From the NCBI GenBank assembly GCA_902790635.1, contig CADASN010000003.1:1-64000 (forward strand): a DNA stretch of 64,000 bases, written 5' to 3'. Below are positions 4,108 to 44,699 of the stretch, piece after piece. The notes beneath the pieces are model-generated. The model had not been told where the DNA came from. It searched no databases and worked only from the letters and a program-made list of their open reading frames with translations. Position 1 is the stretch's first letter; each line of letters begins with the position of its first letter. A program made the position numbers and the translations under genes. The stretch is from an uncultured Bacteroidia bacterium (lineage in GTDB: Bacteria > Bacteroidota > Bacteroidia > Bacteroidales > UBA932).

Positions 4108-4692
4108 TTATCTTCTTTTGCCGACATCCTTAGGCTCAGCCTCGGAGATGTTCTGCGGGATACAGTCACGGACGATCTTCTGCTGGTCCTCGTTGAGCTG
4201 GGTGTAGTTCTTGCCGAATTCGCGCTGGGAGAACTCGTCACGAAGTTCGTTGACGGCCTTGACCAGTTCGTTCTGGACGGCAATGTACGCCTGGTAGCTC
4301 GTACCGCGGTCGTTCTGCAGGGAGATCACACCCTTCGACACGGGGTAAGTGCCTTTGCTGTAGCCCTCGATCTCCTTCACCTCCTTCTCAGGAAGGTTCG
4401 GGTCGTTGGCAGGGTTGCTGATGAATTCTTTGATCTTGTCTTTAAGCTGAGAGACATCTATGGCATCGGAACCGGCAAGAATCCTATCGGCAGAGTTGAT
4501 CTTCACCACGATGATGTTGCGGCGATTGACCTTCTGGTCCTCGACCTTCTGATTGGGATCAGGCATCGGGGGGAGACGACGGGAAAGTCCGAAGTGCGAA
4601 CCCATCGTTGTGGTCATCAGGAAGTAGCACAACAACAGGAAGGCGATATCGGCCGTAGAACTCGAATTGATTGCTGGTGTTTTCTTAGCCAT
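4108..4692 (-). CDS. exbD: ExbD/TolR family transport protein (proximal)
   Basis: A 194-residue ExbD homologue with the membrane helix SSTADIAFLLLCYFLMTT near residues 11-30, including the conserved Asp. Its periplasmic part is longer than that of the neighbouring ExbD. It starts 2 bp from the end of the four-helix protein gene, which indicates coupled translation. Likely role: second subunit type of the proton-channel motor for TonB-dependent transport. Confidence 0.9.
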   Translation of the reverse strand: MAKKTPAINSSSTADIAFLLLCYFLMTTTMGSHFGLSRRLPPMPDPNQKVEDQKVNRRNIIVVKINSADRILAGSDAIDVSQLKDKIKEFISNPANDPNLPEKEVKEIEGYSKGTYPVSKGVISLQNDRGTSYQAYIAVQNELVKAVNELRDEFSQREFGKNYTQLNEDQQKIVRDCIPQNISEAEPKDVGKRR

Positions 4693-4694
4693 AG

Positions 4695-5135
4695 TTACTT
4701 CTTGTTAGCGATAGCCAGACGGATCTCGCCGACGATGATGGCCAGGATGGCGCCGACACCGGCAAAGAGCGTGAGGTTCAAGATGGTATCAGTAAGTTTG
4801 AGGTCGCCAGGCGTAGCGGTGACCGTCGGGTTGGGGAGCGGAGTGCCCTTGGCAAGCAGGAAGGCGATCAGGACGACCGCAGCGATGCCGACAACCACGA
4901 TACCCATTCTGACAAGGGACTTCGGGTTGTTCGCGACGCTGATGATCAGGCCGATCACAATCCAGCAGAAGAGAGCGATGCCGATCATAATCGCTGCCCA
5001 GGTGAGCAGGACGTTCGTCGGCTGTTTCGCGACGTTACCTTCTGCGAAGCCTGCCGTGAAGCCCCATACCAGGATAGCGAGACTGATCAGGATCAGCACC
5101 ACCATGCCCCACTTGAATATTTTGTTGAGTTTCAT
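4695..5135 (-). CDS. Four-helix membrane protein of the exb operon
   Basis: A 146-residue protein with four predicted membrane helices (about residues 8-31, 43-66, 73-95 and 115-140) and almost no soluble domain. No named family was recognised. It lies between exbB (27 bp gap) and the first exbD (2 bp gap) on the same strand, so it is very probably cotranslated with the motor subunits and may be an accessory membrane subunit. That role is inferred from position only. Confidence 0.75.
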   Translation of the reverse strand: MKLNKIFKWGMVVLILISLAILVWGFTAGFAEGNVAKQPTNVLLTWAAIMIGIALFCWIVIGLIISVANNPKSLVRMGIVVVGIAAVVLIAFLLAKGTPLPNPTVTATPGDLKLTDTILNLTLFAGVGAILAIIVGEIRLAIANKK

Positions 5136-5162
5136 TATTCAGTCTTTTAAACCGGGGTTGAA

Positions 5163-5909
5163 TTATTTCTTCTGGCCGTATTTGGTCAGCACGTCGATCA
5201 GGCTGATGGAGGAGTCTTCCATGTCGATGGTGATGGACTCGATCTTCGCGAGGATGTAGTTGTAGAAGACCTGGAGGATCATGGCGACGATGAGACCGCC
5301 GACCGTCGTGATAAGGGCGACCTTCATACCACCGGCAACAACGTTCGGGGAGATATCACCCGCAGCCTGGATGGCGTCGAAGGCGTTGATCATACCGATA
5401 ACCGTACCGAGGAATCCGAGGGACGGGGCGATGGCGATGAACAGGGAGATCCAGCTCAAGCCGCTCTCCAGCTGGCTCTGCTGCACGGAACCGTAGGAGA
5501 CGATGGTCTTCTCGACAACATCAAGGCCCTGGTCGTAGCGAAGCAGACCCTGGTAGAAGATGCTGGCGACGGGACCGCGGGTGTTGCGGCAAACTTCCTT
5601 GGCCTTCTCGATACCGCCTTCGTTGAGGGCAGCCTCAACCTTCTCGACCAGCTTCTTGGTGTTGATCTTGGAGAAGGAGAGATAGAGAATACGCTCGATA
5701 GCCAGGGCGAGACCGATGATCAAGCAGATGATGATCAGGGACATGAAGGCCGGACCACCTTCGATGAATTTCTGCTTGAGCGCCTGGTTGAGAGGCTGCT
5801 CGCTGCCGCTGAGGAGATCGGCTGCGCTCATCTCTTCCTGGGCGAATGCGCTGGTTGCAGTGAAGGCCATAGAGCCCAAACCTGCCAAAAACATGAAAAC
5901 TTTTTTCAT
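5163..5909 (-). CDS. exbB: MotA/TolQ/ExbB proton channel family protein
   Basis: A 248-residue inner-membrane protein with an N-terminal signal-like segment (residues 1-24, ending TSAFAQ), a first membrane helix at about 55-77 (SLIIICLIIGLALAIERI) and two further helices at about 155-175 and 190-220, with the conserved SLGFLGTVIGMINAF region. It forms the stator-like channel with ExbD. It is the first gene of the operon, and an AT-rich leader (5910-6003) precedes it. An extra N-terminal signal segment compared with E. coli ExbB is usual in this phylum. Confidence 0.9.
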   Translation of the reverse strand: MKKVFMFLAGLGSMAFTATSAFAQEEMSAADLLSGSEQPLNQALKQKFIEGGPAFMSLIIICLIIGLALAIERILYLSFSKINTKKLVEKVEAALNEGGIEKAKEVCRNTRGPVASIFYQGLLRYDQGLDVVEKTIVSYGSVQQSQLESGLSWISLFIAIAPSLGFLGTVIGMINAFDAIQAAGDISPNVVAGGMKVALITTVGGLIVAMILQVFYNYILAKIESITIDMEDSSISLIDVLTKYGQKK

Positions 5910-6003
5910 AATGAATTTAATAATGTATTAGTTGTGATAATTATATGCTTGCTAAATATCTAAAATCGGTGCAATTTAGCAAAAAAAATTCAATTTTCAA
6001 TAC

Positions 6004-7071
6004 TTATTTTGAGATTTCCCCCTTCAGGTTTTTCTCCAACAGGGCTTTGACTTTCTCATTGTCTGCGTGTTCCCCCATCAGGTAAAAAAGTTTGCCGAGC
6101 GCGCTCTCGGTCGTGATGTCGTGTCCGGAGATGACCCCGGCGTCCTTAAGCGCCTTGCCGGTGGCATAGATGTCCATGTTGACGTCGCCGCTCAGGCACT
6201 GGGTGACATTGAGCAGGATTTTCCCGCGCGAAGCGGCTTCCCGGACCAGGGCCAGGAACCAGGGGCGGCAGGGGGCGTTGCCGGCTCCGTAGGTCTCCAG
6301 GATGACGGCGCGCGAGCCGTCCCCGAGCAGGATGTCCCGGACCGCCTGTTCGGTGATGCCGGGATGCAGCTTGAGCACGGACACCCGCGTATCCAGGTCG
6401 GTGTGGATGGAGACGCCCTTGCGCCGGTCGTAGCCGTAGTGGATGAAGCTGTTGTTGTACTTGATGTTGATGCCGGCCGTGGCGAGCAGCGGATAGTTGG
6501 GGGACTTGAAGGCGTCGAAGCCGGTGGCGTTGACCTTGACGCTGCGGTTGCCCCGCAGCAGCTGGGAGTCGAAACAGATGCAGACCTCGGGTACCATCGG
6601 GTGGCCGTGGGAGTCCTTCGCCGTGGCGATCTCGACGGCGGAGATCAGGTTTTCCTTGCCGTCGGTGCGCGGCCGTCCGATCGGGAGCTGGCTGCCGGTG
6701 AAGATGACGGGCTTGCCGAGATTCTCCAGCATGAAGCTCAGTGCGGAGGCACTGTAGGCCATCGTGTCGGTGCCGTGCAGGATGACGAAGCCGTTATAGT
6801 CGTCGTAACGTTCCCGGATCAGGCGTGCGAGGGCCTGCCAGAGCGAAGGTTCGACGTCCGAGGAGTCGATGAGCGGGTTGAAGGTGTAGGAGTCGATCTT
6901 CATCGCGAACTTCCGCAGCTCGGGCACCTCTTCAAGGATCCCGCTGAAGTCGAAGGGCCTGAGGGCTCCGTCTCCGGGGTCTTCCTTCATCCCGATGGTG
7001 CCGCCCGTGTAAATCAGCAGGACGGCCGTTTGGCTTGTTTTTTCCGGGAACAATTTGAAACTCAGCTTCAT
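6004..7071 (-). CDS. ansA: Type I L-asparaginase
   Basis: A 355-residue cytoplasmic-type asparaginase that hydrolyses asparagine to aspartate and ammonia. The first active-site threonine motif is IYTGGTIGM (about residues 20-28) and the second is ILHGTDTMAYSASALSFM (about 100-117). No signal peptide is seen, which fits type I. The ATG overlaps the tatD stop by 4 bp (ATGA), so it is the last gene of dprA-tatD-ansA. Confidence 0.92.
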   Translation of the reverse strand: MKLSFKLFPEKTSQTAVLLIYTGGTIGMKEDPGDGALRPFDFSGILEEVPELRKFAMKIDSYTFNPLIDSSDVEPSLWQALARLIRERYDDYNGFVILHGTDTMAYSASALSFMLENLGKPVIFTGSQLPIGRPRTDGKENLISAVEIATAKDSHGHPMVPEVCICFDSQLLRGNRSVKVNATGFDAFKSPNYPLLATAGINIKYNNSFIHYGYDRRKGVSIHTDLDTRVSVLKLHPGITEQAVRDILLGDGSRAVILETYGAGNAPCRPWFLALVREAASRGKILLNVTQCLSGDVNMDIYATGKALKDAGVISGHDITTESALGKLFYLMGEHADNEKVKALLEKNLKGEISK

Positions 7072-7838
7072 ATCGAAAACAATCTTTTGGCGTTGGCAGT
7101 GGTCGCGGCGGCGACTTCTTCGAGGCTGATGCCTTTCTGCCGGGCGACGAAAGCGGCGATGAGGGGGATGTAGGCGCTCTCGTTACGCTCGCCGCGGTGC
7201 GGCACGGGGGTCAGGTAGGGGGCGTCGGTCTCCAGCAGGATGCGGTCCAGCGGGATGCGCTTGATGTCTTCGCCGATGGAGGCTTTCTTGAAGGTCACCA
7301 CGCCGCCGATGCCCACGTACCAGTCCCCGCCGAGGCGCCGCAGGCGGTCGAAGGTCTCAGCGCTGCCGCTGAAAGCGTGGAGATTGCCCCGCAGGGGGAG
7401 GTGCCGGCAGTCGCGCAGGATGGCGAAAAAGTCCTCCGTGGCCTCCCGCAGGTGGATGTTGACGGGCAGGTCCCAGGCGGCGGCGAGCTCCAGCTGGACG
7501 CGGAACGCCTCCTTCTGCTCCTCTTTGGTGTCCGCACCGTAGTGGTAGTCGAGCCCGATCTCGCCGACGGCGACGATCCCCCGTCCGCGCCAGGCTTCCA
7601 GCGCGTCGATCTCGCGCCGCCAGTCCTTGTCCACGGAGCCTGGGTAGAGCCCGAGCATCGGCCGCAGCACACCCGGATGGCGCTCCACGAGCGCGAACAT
7701 CCGCTCCCGCTCCCGCGAATCCACGTCGGCCTGCAGCTGGACGGAAACCCCGGCGGCCAGGGCACGCGCGATAATCTCGTCCTCGCACCCGTCGAAAGCT
7801 TCGTCGTAGGTATGGGTATGCGTGTCGATGAACTCCAT
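7068..7838 (-). CDS. tatD: TatD family metal-dependent hydrolase
   Basis: A 256-residue TIM-barrel nuclease-type hydrolase. The metal-binding N-terminal motif is DTHTHTYDEAF, followed by GEIGLDYHYG, NIHLREA, HAFSG and the C-terminal LETDAPYL, in the order seen in TatD DNases. It starts 10 bp after the dprA stop and overlaps ansA by 4 bp. The likely activity is a 3'-5' exodeoxyribonuclease; adjacency to dprA fits a DNA role but does not prove it. Confidence 0.9.
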   Translation of the reverse strand: MEFIDTHTHTYDEAFDGCEDEIIARALAAGVSVQLQADVDSRERERMFALVERHPGVLRPMLGLYPGSVDKDWRREIDALEAWRGRGIVAVGEIGLDYHYGADTKEEQKEAFRVQLELAAAWDLPVNIHLREATEDFFAILRDCRHLPLRGNLHAFSGSAETFDRLRRLGGDWYVGIGGVVTFKKASIGEDIKRIPLDRILLETDAPYLTPVPHRGERNESAYIPLIAAFVARQKGISLEEVAAATTANAKRLFSI

Positions 7839-13476: not shown

Positions 13477-14721
13477 TTATTCCCGCCAGAGGTAGATGGA
13501 TGTGATCCTGGCGTCGGGTTTGAATTTCGCGTTTTCGAGGATCTGGGGGCCGTTGAAAGAAGGCTCGACCGGCTTCACGAGGGAGTCAGCCGTCGTACGG
13601 AAGGCGATCGTGCTGTTCCAGATGGGGATTTCGATCTGCACGGTGCCGTCCATCAGCATCTTGATCACCAGGGAATCGTTGTCGAAATCGATGCAGTCGT
13701 TGATGCGCGCCCCTACGCGGGGCTGGATCTGCCCGGCTGCGGGTTCGTAGGCGTAGCTGGCCACGCAATATCTCGGGGACCAGGTCTCGATGGAATACAC
13801 TTTCTTGTTTTCCATCTGCACCTGGAGGGTCTCCTCCTCGCCGAGGTTGATCAGCCAGAGGTCGCCGCCCTGGGAATAATTGACGCCGTAGCCCAGCGGG
13901 TCATAATCGAAATAGAAGTCGGGCACCGGCTCACCCAGCATGATGTTGGCGAAGCCGTCCTGGTGGATGCAGGCATAGCGGTAATCCCCGTTGCGCACGA
14001 ATTCGGAGCCGTTCCACAGATAGTCCACGGCCAGGTCGCCATGATAGACTTGTTCCTCGAAATCCATCGGATCATTGAGGACGACCTTCACGCCGTCGGC
14101 CCGGTACTGATAATTATACAGCCCGGCTTGCATCGCATTGCGCAGGGAAGCGACATCGGCGCCTGCCAGGCGGACCTTGTCCTCGAAATCATCCCGGCCC
14201 GTCGGGGGATTGAAAGGAAGCTCGATCTCACGGGCGTCGTTGGTCTCCGGATTGTATTCATAGGCGCGGATATACTTGATGGAAGAGACGTCGCAGCCGC
14301 CGTTCTCGGAGAGCAGTACAAGCACGTGGCCGTCAGCCTTGTAGCGGTAGCAGGCCATCTCGAAACCGTCGTAGCAGTCGCCGTCGAACAGCGTATGGGC
14401 CAGGTAGTTGCACGGACCGACAAACTCAAGGTAGTTGGAGTAGTTCTCTTTCAGGTCGTCCTTGATGCCGTCCTTGAAGCTCTGCGAAGCGAATTTCTCC
14501 GACAGGATGTTGTCCCCGAAGATGGAGAGGATGCGGAAGAGCTCGTCGAAGCTAAACGCGTCGCCGGCGTCGGCCTTGGTGGCCGCAGCGGCTGCCTCGG
14601 CTGTCTCCGCCGGCTGCTTGTCCTGATTGGCGGCGCTGCCCTGGTTGCCGCCCTTGCAGCCCGTCGCGACAAGGACGAAGGCTGTCAGAAGAAGAAATAG
14701 TCTTTTCATCATTTTTGTCAT
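13477..14721 (-). CDS. Hypothetical lipoprotein
   Basis: A protein of up to 414 residues with a lipoprotein signal (MKRLFLLLTAFVLVATGC, Cys at about residue 22) followed by an Ala/Glu-rich linker at about 24-50 and a long beta-rich domain of unknown family. Three in-frame ATGs occur at 14721, 14712 and 14709; the promoter box at 14730-14737 is so close that the first would be almost leaderless. It is probably anchored in the outer membrane or periplasmic face. No enzymatic motif was recognised. Confidence 0.75.
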   Translation of the reverse strand: MTKMMKRLFLLLTAFVLVATGCKGGNQGSAANQDKQPAETAEAAAAATKADAGDAFSFDELFRILSIFGDNILSEKFASQSFKDGIKDDLKENYSNYLEFVGPCNYLAHTLFDGDCYDGFEMACYRYKADGHVLVLLSENGGCDVSSIKYIRAYEYNPETNDAREIELPFNPPTGRDDFEDKVRLAGADVASLRNAMQAGLYNYQYRADGVKVVLNDPMDFEEQVYHGDLAVDYLWNGSEFVRNGDYRYACIHQDGFANIMLGEPVPDFYFDYDPLGYGVNYSQGGDLWLINLGEEETLQVQMENKKVYSIETWSPRYCVASYAYEPAAGQIQPRVGARINDCIDFDNDSLVIKMLMDGTVQIEIPIWNSTIAFRTTADSLVKPVEPSFNGPQILENAKFKPDARITSIYLWRE

Positions 14722-14729
14722 TATTCAAA

Positions 14730-14737
14730 CAAAGGTA
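14730..14737 (-). promoter_or_regulatory. -7 promoter box for the lipoprotein gene
   Basis: TACCTTTG on the minus strand ends 8 bp before the first possible ATG at 14721, leaving little or no leader. Confidence 0.6.
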
Positions 14738-14757
14738 ACAAATAATCCGATAGATTC

Positions 14758-14789
14758 GCCGGTCAGGCCGGCGATGGTGGAAGACTCCG
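14758..14789 (-). repeat. Short hairpin plus motif shared with the TPR-gene terminator
   Basis: cgccgg (about 14758-14763) pairs with ccggcg around tcagg. Next to it lies TGGAAGACTCCG (14778-14789), the same 12-mer found at 10364-10375. Both 12-mers sit a few bases past a minus-strand stop codon, here that of the permease gene. Confidence 0.45.
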
Positions 14790-14794
14790 CCGCC

Positions 14795-15955
14795 TTATTC
14801 AGCTTTTACGGTCTTTGCCGGATCGACGCGGGAGATGAACAGCGTCGGGATCAGCAGCAGGAGCAGGATGCCGGCAAAGGCGGCGGCATCCGCCAGCAGG
14901 ATGGCCGGCAGGTCCACGTGGACCGGCACGAAGGAGACGAAATAGCTCTCCGGGTTGAGTTTGATCCAGTGCGTGGTGCCCTGGACCAGGCAGAACAGCA
15001 GGGCGGCTGCATTGCCGATGGCCATGCCGATGGCGACCGTCCGGGCGCCGACCCGCAGGAATACCCGGGCAATGGCCCGGTCACCCATCCCGAGGGTCTT
15101 GAGGGTGCCGATCGTGGAGACGTGCCGGAAGAGCAGGATCAGCAGGCCGGAGATCATGTTGAAGCCTGCCACGACGGTCATCAGCAGCAGGATGGCGTAA
15201 ACGTTGAAATCGATTAGTTCCAGCCAGTCGAACAGTTGGGAGAAGCGCTCCGTGGCCGCGACCGCGCGCAACGGGTCTTCATCTTCCCGTGCGCCCAGGT
15301 TGGCGCGCCAGCCCAGCTCGTCGGTGATCCGCTGGAGGGCCTTGCGAGCGCGGAAGCGCGGCGCGACGCTCACCTCGAGCAGCGACGCCTGGTCGCTCTC
15401 CCATTCGTTGAGGCGCCGCAGGTCCCCGATGGGGACATAGAGCAGCAGCCCTTCTTCGGTGTCCATAGCACTGTCGTACAGGGAGAGGATGTGCCATTTA
15501 CGGATCTTGACTTTCTCCCCGATGAACCAGGCGGTCAGGTCGTCCCCGGGCGCGAGTCCGAGACGGTCCGCCAGCGTGGCGGGCAGCCGGACGCCGAGCG
15601 GGATGGTGTCGGCCTGCGTGCCCTTGAAAAGTGCACCGTGGATGTCGTCCCCGATCTTGAGGATGCCGGGCTGGTAGATGACCGGCTCGATCCGTTCCAC
15701 ACCGTCCACCGCTTCCAGCTGCGCCAGGTAGGAGGGAGCGGTGCGGACGGGATCGGAACTGCCGGACAGGTCGGCGGAAGCATTCGTCAACAGGACGTCG
15801 CCCGTGACCGCGGACACGCCGCCCCGGATCTCCCGGCGGAACCCGCCGGAAATGGCGACGGCCACGATGATCACGAAGAAAGAGATGGCTATCGCGACGA
15901 TAGCCATCTTCTCTTTGACGTGCAGACGCCCGGCGAGAAAGCCTTCCGCCTGCAT
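14795..15955 (-). CDS. ABC transporter permease, LolC/LolE-like (FtsX fold)
   Basis: A 386-residue protein with the N-terminal membrane helix at about residues 17-39 (MAIVAIAISFFVIIVAVAIS), a large periplasmic domain to about 245, and three C-terminal helices (near 255-280, 305-330 and 355-375), the MacB/FtsX permease arrangement. LolC/E homologues release lipoproteins from the inner membrane. The start at 15955 is 4 bp after the M13 peptidase stop; a longer frame starts inside that gene and is not used. No ATPase gene is adjacent. Confidence 0.85.
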   Translation of the reverse strand: MQAEGFLAGRLHVKEKMAIVAIAISFFVIIVAVAISGGFRREIRGGVSAVTGDVLLTNASADLSGSSDPVRTAPSYLAQLEAVDGVERIEPVIYQPGILKIGDDIHGALFKGTQADTIPLGVRLPATLADRLGLAPGDDLTAWFIGEKVKIRKWHILSLYDSAMDTEEGLLLYVPIGDLRRLNEWESDQASLLEVSVAPRFRARKALQRITDELGWRANLGAREDEDPLRAVAATERFSQLFDWLELIDFNVYAILLLMTVVAGFNMISGLLILLFRHVSTIGTLKTLGMGDRAIARVFLRVGARTVAIGMAIGNAAALLFCLVQGTTHWIKLNPESYFVSFVPVHVDLPAILLADAAAFAGILLLLLIPTLFISRVDPAKTVKAE

Positions 15956-42233: not shown

Positions 42234-42908
42234 CTACTTGTCCGACCGGGTCAGGATCTTGTCGATCATCCCGTAGGCCAGGGCTTCTTCGGAATTCATC
42301 CAGTAGTCCCGGTCGGCATCGGCGAAGACCTTGTCGTAGGCCTGGCCGCTGTGCGAGGCGATCAGGGAGATCAGCTCGCTGCGGGTCTTCTCGATCTCCT
42401 TGGCGGCGATCAGGATGTCGGATGCCTGTCCGTGCGCACCGCCCATCGGCTGGTGGATCAGCACGCGGGCGTGCGGGAGGGCGGAGCGCTTGCCGTGCGC
42501 ACCGGCGCAGAGCAGGACCGAAGCCATCGAGGCCGCCATGCCCGTGCAGATCGTGGCCACGTCGGGCCGCACCAGCTGCATGGTGTCATAGATGGCCAGG
42601 CCGCTGGACACCTGTCCGCCCGGGCTGTTGATGTAGAGGGAGATGTCCCGGGACGCATCCGTGGACGAGAGGAAGAGCAGCTGGGCCAGGATGATGTTGG
42701 CGACGTCGTCGTCGATCCCGACACCGAGGAAGATGATGCGGTCCATCATCAGGCGGCTGAACACATCCATCGACGCCACGTTGAGCGGGCGCTCCTCGAT
42801 GATGGTCGGGTTGATGTAATCGTCAACGGCCGTGCGGTAGGCATGCAGGGTCATCGGGTTGATCCCGCGGCCCAGGGTGGCGTATTTTTCGAATTCAGTC
42901 TTGGACAT
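42234..42908 (-). CDS. clpP: ATP-dependent Clp protease proteolytic subunit
   Basis: A 224-residue serine peptidase that forms the ClpP tetradecamer. The catalytic Ser lies in TGMAASMASVLLCAG, the His in LIHQPMGGAHGQASD and the Asp in DADRDYWMNSEEAL. The length and oligomerisation regions are standard. The gene is not next to clpX or tig as is common; it starts 12 bp after a kinase-AAA+ fusion gene. Confidence 0.95.
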   Translation of the reverse strand: MSKTEFEKYATLGRGINPMTLHAYRTAVDDYINPTIIEERPLNVASMDVFSRLMMDRIIFLGVGIDDDVANIILAQLLFLSSTDASRDISLYINSPGGQVSSGLAIYDTMQLVRPDVATICTGMAASMASVLLCAGAHGKRSALPHARVLIHQPMGGAHGQASDILIAAKEIEKTRSELISLIASHSGQAYDKVFADADRDYWMNSEEALAYGMIDKILTRSDK

Positions 42909-42920
42909 AGGCTGGGAAGT

Positions 42921-44699
42921 TTAATTGTCGAAACCGATTTTGGGCCGTTTGACAACGGCGGCAAGTGAGGAAGGATTGGCTTTGATGGAGTCCTCCAGGA
43001 TGCGCTGGGAGAGGGGCTCGTCGGCGAGTGCCGCCACCATCGCCGATTCGTTGACGATGAAGGCGATATCGGACGAAGCGTAGTTGTCGGTCAGGGCCGC
43101 CAGGCGCTTGATGTCGATGTCGTCGGACAGCGGCCGGCCCTTGAGGTGCAGCTTGAAGATGGCCGCGCGCGTCTCGGGGTCCGGTGCGGGGATCTCGTAT
43201 TTGAGGTCCATGCGCCCCTTGCGGAGGACGGCCGGATCGATCATGTCCAGGCGGTTGGTGGTGCCGATCACGAAGATGCCGCGTTCGGCGCAGTTGTTCA
43301 GCTGCGAGAGGAATTCATTGACTTCTTCGGCGCGGTTGCGGGCCGAGTCCGAACCGCGGGCGGGGACGAAGGAGTCGAATTCGTCGAAGCAGATCACGGA
43401 CGGAGCGTTCTCCTCGGCTTTCTTGAACAGGTCGGCGATCTTGCCCTGGGTACCGTGGATATAGGTGCTGCCCAGGTCGGAGCCGTTGACGAGGTAGTAG
43501 TTGAAGCCCGACTCCTCGGCGAATTTCTTGGCGAAGAAGGTCTTGCCGCAGCCCGGAGGCCCGTAGAGCAGCATGCCGTTGGGGGGCAGCAGCCGGTACG
43601 CGGCGGCCTTCTTGCGGTCCCGCAGGACCCAGATCACGCGGTTGAGCAGCTCCTGTTTGAGCCCGTCCATCCCGGCCACGTCGGCGAAGCCTCCCTCGCC
43701 GGTCTTGTTGATGCGGGCGGCCAGCCGGACCTGGTCCTCCCGGGGCTCCTGCTTTTCCTCCGGCTTGCCGGTTCCGTCGGCAGGCTCGGCGGGTTTCTTC
43801 CGCGGCGGAGCGGCCTGCTCCCGCGTGACGGACACGCTGTCCGGCGTGAAATTCTCCGACAGGACGTCCAGCAGCACGGAAGCGTCCGGCCGCCGGCTCG
43901 GATCGAGATCCAGTCCCGCTTGCAGGATGGCCTCCATCTCCGGGTCGGCGAGGGTGCCCCGGGGGAAGGACAGCGCGGCCTCGCGGGCGTGGCCGACGCT
44001 GATTTTCTTCGAGTAAAAAGAATCGCGCAGCGAGATGGGACAATGCCAGGGCGCGCGGCCGTAGAGCAGGGTGTAGAGGATCGCCGACACGGCGAAAACG
44101 TCACTCTTGCCGGTGAAAGTCCCGGTCAGCGCCTCCGGGGCCACGTACAGTACATTGAGGTCTTCCAGGGGGAAGGGGACGGCATCCGTCACGTCGGGGG
44201 CGGTGTGGCCCAGGTCGATGATCTTGGGCGTTACGCTGCCGTCTTCTTGGGACTCCAGCAGGATGTTGCGGGGCGTGAGGTCATTGTGGTTCAGGCCCTT
44301 CTCATCATGCAGGTAGGTGATACCCTTGAGGATGGGGATGATGATGGCCTTGGCTTCCGGGGCGGTGAAGGTGCGCCCTTCGCGCAGTACTTCCGACAGG
44401 AGTTTCCCGTTGAAGAAACGGGCGAGGAGGTACTGGAAATCCTTGCCGTTGATCTTGCCCGAGCCGTGCCCGACATGCTGGATGATATTGGGGTGGTCCA
44501 GGTTGCTGCAGAACACGATTTCCGTGACCTGCCCGGCCGTTATCATCTTGGAGGGCATGCGGGTCAGGTCGAAGAATTTCATGAAGAAGGGCTCGCCGTC
44601 GGCGTTCTTGACGAGATAGCTGTCGTTGTACAGGCCTTCCTTGATGAAGCGCTGGACGGTGTATTCCCCGAAGGGGGTATTGTCTGGGAGTCGGATCAT
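42921..44699 (-). CDS. Protein kinase-AAA+ ATPase fusion protein
   Basis: A 592-residue protein with two domains. Residues 1-280 are an STK-type kinase: a degenerate Gly-rich loop (IKEGLYNDSYLV), Lys41 in FFMKFF, catalytic HNDLTPRN (138-145), metal motif DLG in place of DFG (162-164) and an APE motif at about 187. Residues 282-330 are a Pro/Lys/Glu linker. Residues 335-592 are a classic AAA domain: Walker A GPPGCGKT (380-387), pore-type loop STYIHGTQ, Walker B VICFDE (435-440), GTTN sensor and Arg finger RKGRMD. It ends RPKIGFDN. The start at 44699 was preferred to an upstream frame that overlaps alr. It lies 12 bp upstream of clpP. Confidence 0.85.
   Translation of the reverse strand: MIRLPDNTPFGEYTVQRFIKEGLYNDSYLVKNADGEPFFMKFFDLTRMPSKMITAGQVTEIVFCSNLDHPNIIQHVGHGSGKINGKDFQYLLARFFNGKLLSEVLREGRTFTAPEAKAIIIPILKGITYLHDEKGLNHNDLTPRNILLESQEDGSVTPKIIDLGHTAPDVTDAVPFPLEDLNVLYVAPEALTGTFTGKSDVFAVSAILYTLLYGRAPWHCPISLRDSFYSKKISVGHAREAALSFPRGTLADPEMEAILQAGLDLDPSRRPDASVLLDVLSENFTPDSVSVTREQAAPPRKKPAEPADGTGKPEEKQEPREDQVRLAARINKTGEGGFADVAGMDGLKQELLNRVIWVLRDRKKAAAYRLLPPNGMLLYGPPGCGKTFFAKKFAEESGFNYYLVNGSDLGSTYIHGTQGKIADLFKKAEENAPSVICFDEFDSFVPARGSDSARNRAEEVNEFLSQLNNCAERGIFVIGTTNRLDMIDPAVLRKGRMDLKYEIPAPDPETRAAIFKLHLKGRPLSDDIDIKRLAALTDNYASSDIAFIVNESAMVAALADEPLSQRILEDSIKANPSSLAAVVKRPKIGFDN

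Follow-up and report, generated by a model that had tools for sequence, protein, structure and literature searches.

Gene arrangement at the locus

The window, that is, the whole stretch of 64,000 nucleotides from an uncultured Bacteroidia bacterium that was analysed, carries on its minus strand a single uninterrupted frame of 592 amino acids (aa), which begins with an ATG at position 44699 and in which the Pfam scan found both a protein kinase domain (Pkinase) and an AAA domain. An alternative upstream TTG start would extend the product, referred to here as the kinase-AAA, to 642 aa; the alignment of the homologues favours the ATG start. The features of the locus are as follows.

42921..44699, minus strand: kinase-AAA coding sequence, 592 aa (open frame, Pfam, homologues)
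43869..44660, minus strand: protein kinase domain, residues 14–277 (PF00069, 7.4e-29; catalytic residues present, GxGxxG absent)
43725..43838, minus strand: Pro/Lys/Glu-rich linker, residues 288–325 (pLDDT < 50 in the structure model)
42978..43688, minus strand: classical AAA module, about residues 338–574 (PF00004 at residues 376–504, 8e-35; PDB sequence and fold matches)
42930..42938, minus strand: C-terminal tripeptide I588-G589-F590, proposed ClpP-docking motif (homologue conservation; low model confidence at residues 582–592)
42234..42908, minus strand: clpP, 224 aa (PF00574, 8.4e-76; begins 12 bp after the kinase-AAA)

The initial annotation had described a kinase and an AAA+ ATPase joined in one continuous frame, and this is borne out by the open frame, by the two Pfam domains and by full-length relatives. 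The motifs that it had named (HND, DLG, APE, a degraded Gly-rich loop, Walker A and B, the sensor and the Arg finger) could be read off directly. A fusion of two genes by an assembly error is ruled out by the occurrence of the same architecture in many Bacteroidota genomes, at about 31–79% identity, and the fusion protein is confirmed as real. Far from being missing in all relatives, the kinase was detectable in 69 of the 82 distinct homologues; one of the 13 in which it was undetectable is present as a contig fragment only.

The genome of the window is an 83% complete bin of 39 contigs with one copy of the kinase-AAA, and the next-best match in it (36%, AAA part) lies in a 691-aa frame that is probably FtsH. 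Full-length copies were found in 7 of 61 close genomes, including its own (the others being G008, G034, G021, G053, G055 and G039, the last matched in two pieces). The scan of named genomes gave at least about 20 full-length copies among the best 80 loci, the remaining loci being AAA proteins at large, and 21 such copies were aligned with the window protein; the carriers include Empedobacter sedimenti, Salegentibacter salarius, Plebeiobacterium marinum, a Daejeonella bin and one bin labelled Clostridiales. A full-length gene also lies on a plasmid of Haliscomenobacter hydrossis. A match was found in 20 of the 393 genomes drawn at the level of the order (E ≤ 1e-45) and in 42 of the 400 drawn at the level of the genus (E ≤ 1e-55), some of the latter without the kinase. 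Short relatives consisting of the AAA part without a kinase were also found (L209–L211, of 340, 331 and 311 aa).

The gene was also considered as cargo of mobile elements. As phage cargo in general it was rejected, with none of the 29 phage records at E ≤ 1e-20 covering 80% of the query; the 10 phage records among the matches listed align to the AAA part only. As plasmid cargo in general it was likewise rejected, with just one of the four plasmid records at E ≤ 1e-40, that of H. hydrossis, covering the query.

The kinase half

The catalytic residues of a Ser/Thr kinase, namely the β3 Lys, the helix-C Glu, the HxD..N and DxG motifs and APE, are all present in the window protein, where they are K41, E60, H138-N-D140 with N145, D162-L-G164 and residues 187–189, along with D200. 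The GxGxxG motif is missing; residues 20–30 read KEGLYNDSYLV, and none of the aligned relatives has GxGxxG at this place.

In an alignment of 22 diverse homologues, 14 carry the canonical residue at each of K41, D140 and D162. Of the eight that deviate, seven have another residue at position 140 (Glu four times, Asn twice and Gly once), and in L042 the loss is confined to the Asp of the DFG motif. The alignment of the close relatives has 23 rows, one of which (L232) is split over two frames and unreadable in the kinase. K, E, HND, N145 and D162 are conserved throughout the remaining 22, where the last of these motifs reads DLG in 21 rows and DMG in one; this conservation suggests selection for catalysis in the group. 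In a further branch, whose members lie in an operon with Hsp70 (see below), catalytic residues are replaced in five of the seven aligned members (L044, L045, L048, L050 and L081) and intact in L049 and L055.

The initial annotation had proposed either an active kinase or a pseudokinase, and the answer is split between branches of the family. Judged by its residues, the kinase of the window clade is more probably active than inactive, and activity in most of the Hsp70-operon branch appears doubtful. Because the aligned relatives are without GxGxxG, there is also room for a nucleotide-binding pseudokinase.

The AAA half

The window protein belongs to the classical AAA family, its score against PF00004 being 120.6 bits at a cut-off of 21.2. 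Walker A (GPPGCGKT), Walker B (FDEF), a pore loop (TYIHGT), the sensor Asn N482 and the two Arg fingers R493 and R496 were identified. None of the 22 diverse homologues has a change in Walker A, Walker B, N482 or R493, and 20 of them also keep R496. The best PDB matches to the AAA part by sequence are VCP/p97-like chains, and the best fold matches are FtsH-like, p97 and PAN chains; all 50 fold matches listed are AAA proteins. A separate observation concerns the kinase-AAA of L219 (G497:C4), which reads GPPGCGNT, so that the lysine of Walker A is replaced by Asn, through a base error or in an inactive copy.

Several curated families were tried as an identity for the protein and rejected. Its NCBIfam scores were 170.9 bits for FtsH (cut-off 600, with no M41 peptidase found by Pfam), 184.3 bits for CDC48 (cut-off 802.65), 161.3 bits for the proteasome-activating nucleotidase PAN (cut-off 500), 66.4 bits for MAD6 (NF047741, cut-off 460) and 85.1 bits for IetA (NF042959, cut-off 510). 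ClpX (TIGR00382, cut-off 370.75 bits) was not among its NCBIfam matches at E ≤ 0.001, and the ClpX scan of the genome gave no match at this locus, so that membership of ClpX was also rejected.

The C-terminal tail

According to PMC8745299, Clp ATPases dock into the hydrophobic pockets of ClpP through loops tipped with (L/I/V)-G-(F/L). The window protein carries a tripeptide of this type, I588-G589-F590, which stops two residues short of the C-terminus in a segment (residues 582–592) of pLDDT < 50 in the structure model. It is located at the C-terminus, whereas in ClpX, ClpA and ClpC the tripeptide belongs to a loop inside the ATPase domain. The motif [IVM]G[FY] occurs within the final 14 residues in 71 of the 82 distinct homologues, often as [RK]x[IV]G[FY] (RPKIGFKP in H. 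hydrossis), and the preceding stretch varies in length and in letters. The named homologues come from genomes in which the docking loop of ClpX reads [LIVM]G[FY] at 21 of the 21 ClpX loci over the cut-off. Since the short relatives without a kinase (L209–L211) retain the tail as AIGFH, it is the AAA domain, and not the kinase, that the tail accompanies.

In a rough control, the motif was found within the last 12 residues of 3 of the 265 other open reading frames of at least 200 aa at the same loci, a set that includes spurious frames. The three are a divergent ClpP (ClpP2) of L039 and two proteins of some interest in themselves. At L046, a protein of 1097 residues with AAA and AAA_lid_6 matches (4168–7461, plus strand) lies two genes upstream of the kinase-AAA and ends in RIGFGA, so that the IGF tail is found on one more AAA protein besides the kinase-AAA. 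At L053, a protein of 250 aa (14107–14859, plus strand), apparently membrane-bound and YbjN-like by eye, has the C-terminus KPRRPVGFTQSYE; its Pfam scan gave no match.

The 11 homologues without the motif fall into several kinds. L242, L243 and L052/L259 come from ClpX-negative genomes; L244/L245 and L248 are short copies from genomes in which ClpX is present; the acidobacterial L057 and L058 end in -RGF and -RGL; and L212 and L213 are remote AAA proteins. The remaining two, L006 and L039, lie beside ClpP2 and are described below.

Docking tails at the C-terminus are known from another group of ATPases: PMC7226402 and PMC5515868 state, respectively, that proteasomal ATPases dock by a C-terminal HbYX tail and that Mpa docks by a C-terminal QYL. 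The kinase-AAA can therefore be likened to a ring of the proteasomal kind that carries a plug of the ClpX kind.

Gene pairing with clpP

The clpP gene next to the kinase-AAA is the sole ClpP match found in its own genome. The Ser, His and Asp stretches of its product align with those of solved ClpPs, and the protein groups with the canonical ClpP clade of the genus (23 rows, 100/99). Scans around the gene pair gave no informative signal: there was 1 promoter-like site as against 0.6 expected, and 6 terminator-like sites, all on the plus strand, as against 2.8 expected.

The clpP gene directly follows the kinase-AAA in nine genomes of the genus (G000, G008, G525, G621, G497, G723, G674, G475 and G717), the kinase-AAA frame being in two pieces in G717 and G475; the split gene of G475 (L261, G475:C65) is followed by an intact clpP. 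The nine kinase-AAAs fall in one clade of 11 rows in the AAA tree (100/96), together with those of G593 and G699, which have no adjoining clpP, and the ClpPs of the nine genomes form one clade (100/98) inside the canonical ClpPs of the genus. Most homologues are not beside clpP. Adjacency was seen in 11 genomes, and because these belong to just two clades, it counts as two evolutionary events.

In the second clade, represented by L006 (G021) and L039, the gene directly downstream of the kinase-AAA encodes ClpP2. The two ClpP2 proteins share 79% identity with each other and 41–43% with the window ClpP, and their Ser, His and Asp stretches appear intact by eye. The kinase-AAA tails beside them are VSGL (L006) and VVQGLS (L039), and these -GL tails lie outside the strict [IVM]G[FY] motif. 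The L039 genome has ClpX and no other good ClpP match, and the gene preceding its clpX is not clpP.

Plain co-occurrence with ClpP is weak evidence because ClpP is present in most relatives, and the one informative case for the link is the genus in which ClpX losses occur. Within this genus, the presence of ClpXP is itself uneven. No ClpP above 200 bits was found in 13 of 37 genomes, and G023 (97% complete) and G019 (91%) had neither a ClpP above 200 bits nor a ClpX over the cut-off; ClpXP seems to have been lost in part of the genus. At L190 (G019:C28) there is a frame for a Clp ATPase with a GSGIGF loop, and ClpP was not found in G019.

In one clade, the tail is lost along with the protease system, which speaks for the link. 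Neither ClpP nor ClpX gave a meaningful score in the L052 genome (G078), whose kinase-AAA ends in PINDKILN; similar ends occur in the clade mates G617 (PINDKILN) and G591 (PVNNKILN), in which ClpX was not found. As counter-cases, L037 retains the tail PPIGFR although neither ClpP nor ClpX was detected in its bin, and the tail is lost in G529, G772 and G479 with ClpX present, the kinase also being undetectable in these copies. ClpP was not found in the L036 genome, where the contig ends 226 bp past clpX; the contig end may account for the missing ClpP.

Distribution of ClpX

ClpX over the cut-off was found in none of the nine genomes with the kinase-AAA directly before clpP (0/9), that of the window included. 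Among the 32 remaining genomes of the genus with a kinase-AAA, it was found in 28 (Fisher p = 2e-6, without correction for shared ancestry). The 32 comparison genomes are those with no ClpP in the flank examined, G021, which has both ClpP2 and ClpX, being left out. The nine ClpX-negative genomes are bins of 56–94% completeness, and if each of them did have ClpX, the chance of missing it in all nine through incompleteness would be about 2e-7, assuming independence. Since the AAA tree unites the nine in a single clade, their lack of ClpX counts as one event in evolution, observed repeatedly. Two of the 28 positive genomes, G499 and G699, are counted by short divergent ClpX copies (434 and 450 bits, respectively), and G499 has in addition a ClpX broken into two pieces below the cut-off.

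The two members of the window clade without adjoining clpP differ from each other. ClpX was not found in G593. G699 has a divergent ClpX, with 53% identity to the canonical one, directly before a ClpP that groups with that of G009; at this locus (L256, G699:C19, 2604–4443) the order is clpX-clpP, and the ClpP is of another lineage of the genus. This pair looks like a replaced cassette that was brought in. In the genome of the window, one ClpB_D2-small protein was found, which resembles ClpB, and no IGF-type docking loop was seen in the part of it that was examined.

We consider it somewhat more likely than not that ClpX was displaced by the kinase-AAA in the window clade. A ring of this kind working with ClpP would, if confirmed, also account for the survival of ClpP in some Bacteroidales in which no ClpX was detected.

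Other neighbourhoods and alternative readings

In one branch of the homologues, the kinase-AAA lies in an operon of the order Hsp70, kinase-AAA and TerB-like gene. By Pfam, Hsp70 passed for L050, and TerB was just below the cut-off for L045 and not found for L050. On the H. hydrossis plasmid pHALHY02 (L273), an operon of this kind adjoins the annotated BREX genes brxL and pglZ. YbjN-like genes for about 125 aa adjoin the kinase-AAA, by eye, in at least eight loci (L036, L038, L039, L041, L042, L047, L054 and L030); of two that were scanned with Pfam, the one at L039 passes the cut-offs of YbjN and TY-Chap1, an entry described as a peptide-binding chaperone, and the one at L036 is just under. 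Just upstream of the kinase-AAA at L046 (7462–7983, plus strand) lies a gene whose product we take to resemble a low-molecular-weight tyrosine phosphatase. The Hsp70/TerB-like and YbjN/TY-Chap-like neighbours suggest a role in protein quality control, in which the recognition parts would differ between branches and ClpP would be the shared outlet.

These neighbours also allow the tail to be read differently. It could dock another hub, such as a YbjN/TY-Chap-like or TerB-like neighbour, with clpP in the window clade being a chance neighbour, which would fit the number of YbjN-like loci, the peptide-binding description of TY-Chap1 and the YbjN-like-looking membrane protein of L053, which itself ends in RPVGFTQSYE. 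However, the tail is retained in the window clade and in the Hsp70/TerB-like operons, where no YbjN-like neighbour was seen, it is lost in a clade without ClpX, and it matches the docking motif of ClpX of the same genomes, so that we regard this reading as unlikely. It is quite unlikely that the protein acts with Hsp70 as an independent ATPase for remodelling or disaggregation, in which the kinase would serve as a substrate adaptor and ClpP would be used rarely or never. The Hsp70 operon and the replaced kinase residues in most members of that branch would be expected of such a protein, but its members retain the IGF tail, whereas the plastid ClpB3, of the disaggregase type, lacks the docking motif and is unable to dock according to PMC7966870; the use of ClpP is, moreover, compatible with a link to Hsp70.

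The best PADLOC matches of the two halves, mad6 for the kinase (3.7e-40) and IetA for the AAA part (1.5e-26), and the position of the H. hydrossis copy beside brxL and pglZ would point to a component of phage defence. The scores of 66.4 and 85.1 bits against MAD6 and IetA indicate kinship of the halves only, and the window locus lies among genes that we take to be clpP, rsmG and alanine racemase, in an order that is also present in G008, which makes a defence role very improbable.

Proposed function

The kinase-AAA is probably the ATPase (unfoldase) partner of ClpP in the window lineage. In the mechanism that we infer, the AAA domains would assemble as a hexamer with aromatic-hydrophobic pore loops, and the kinase domains would sit on flexible linkers at the entry side, where they would select or modify substrates. 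The ring of ClpP would receive I-G-F of the disordered C-terminal tails in its hydrophobic pockets, and the unfolded substrate would be threaded into ClpP. That the putative kinase phosphorylates the substrates that are subsequently degraded is conceivable, and we put it forward as a tentative part of the model. The idea of an unfoldase controlled by a kinase or pseudokinase was already contained in the initial annotation and stands with the fusion itself; the adjoining clpP, the IGF tripeptide, the undetected ClpX and the operon partners of the relatives had been overlooked there.

Taken as one joint claim, the results may possibly describe a new class of ClpP protease, in which a classical AAA ring with a C-terminal IGF dock brings its own kinase to phosphorylate the substrate or, where the kinase is inactive, simply to recognise it before it is threaded into ClpP. 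In one Bacteroidales lineage this protein would have displaced ClpX entirely, and in another it would have gained a ClpP of its own, the tail having changed to match. If true, this would show that the two large families of protease motors can exchange their docking code, with a p97/PAN-like ring using the tripeptide of ClpX where proteasomal ATPases have HbYX, and a kinase domain would be tied directly to degradation by ClpP within one chain. No kinase-AAA partner of ClpP was described in the titles and opening lines of abstracts listed from the open literature searched, most subscription journals lying outside it.

Comparison with known systems

To our knowledge, each of the established ATPases of ClpP (ClpX, ClpA, ClpC and ClpE) belongs to the Clp/HSP100 proteins and has its docking loop in the interior of the chain; the N-domain of ClpX binds zinc. 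The kinase-AAA resembles FtsH in having an AAA domain that matches it by NCBIfam, and differs from it in scoring below the cut-off and in having no M41 match. In PADLOC, the kinase half is best matched by the MAD6/PD-T4-6 kinases and the AAA half by the IetA ATPase, although the window protein is far below both NCBIfam cut-offs. Cpa, an actinobacterial Cdc48-like AAA protein, is a further bacterial ATPase of this type with a compartmental protease as its partner. According to the accessible text of PMC6017811, this partner is the 20S proteasome, the interaction is unchanged when the final five residues of Cpa are removed, and no kinase is reported there for Cpa.

PAN, Mpa and Rpt share with the kinase-AAA the classical AAA ring and a short C-terminal docking tail; they have 20S as their partner, N-domains of their own and an HbYX or QYL tail, whereas ClpP, a kinase and IGF are proposed here. 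The likeness to ClpX in ClpXP lies in the proposed job of unfolding substrates and feeding them to ClpP, in the same class of tripeptide and in the gene pairing with clpP. ClpX, however, is of another AAA+ group and carries its tripeptide in an internal loop, whereas the protein of the window combines a classical AAA module with a kinase as its N-domain and a tripeptide at the C-terminus.
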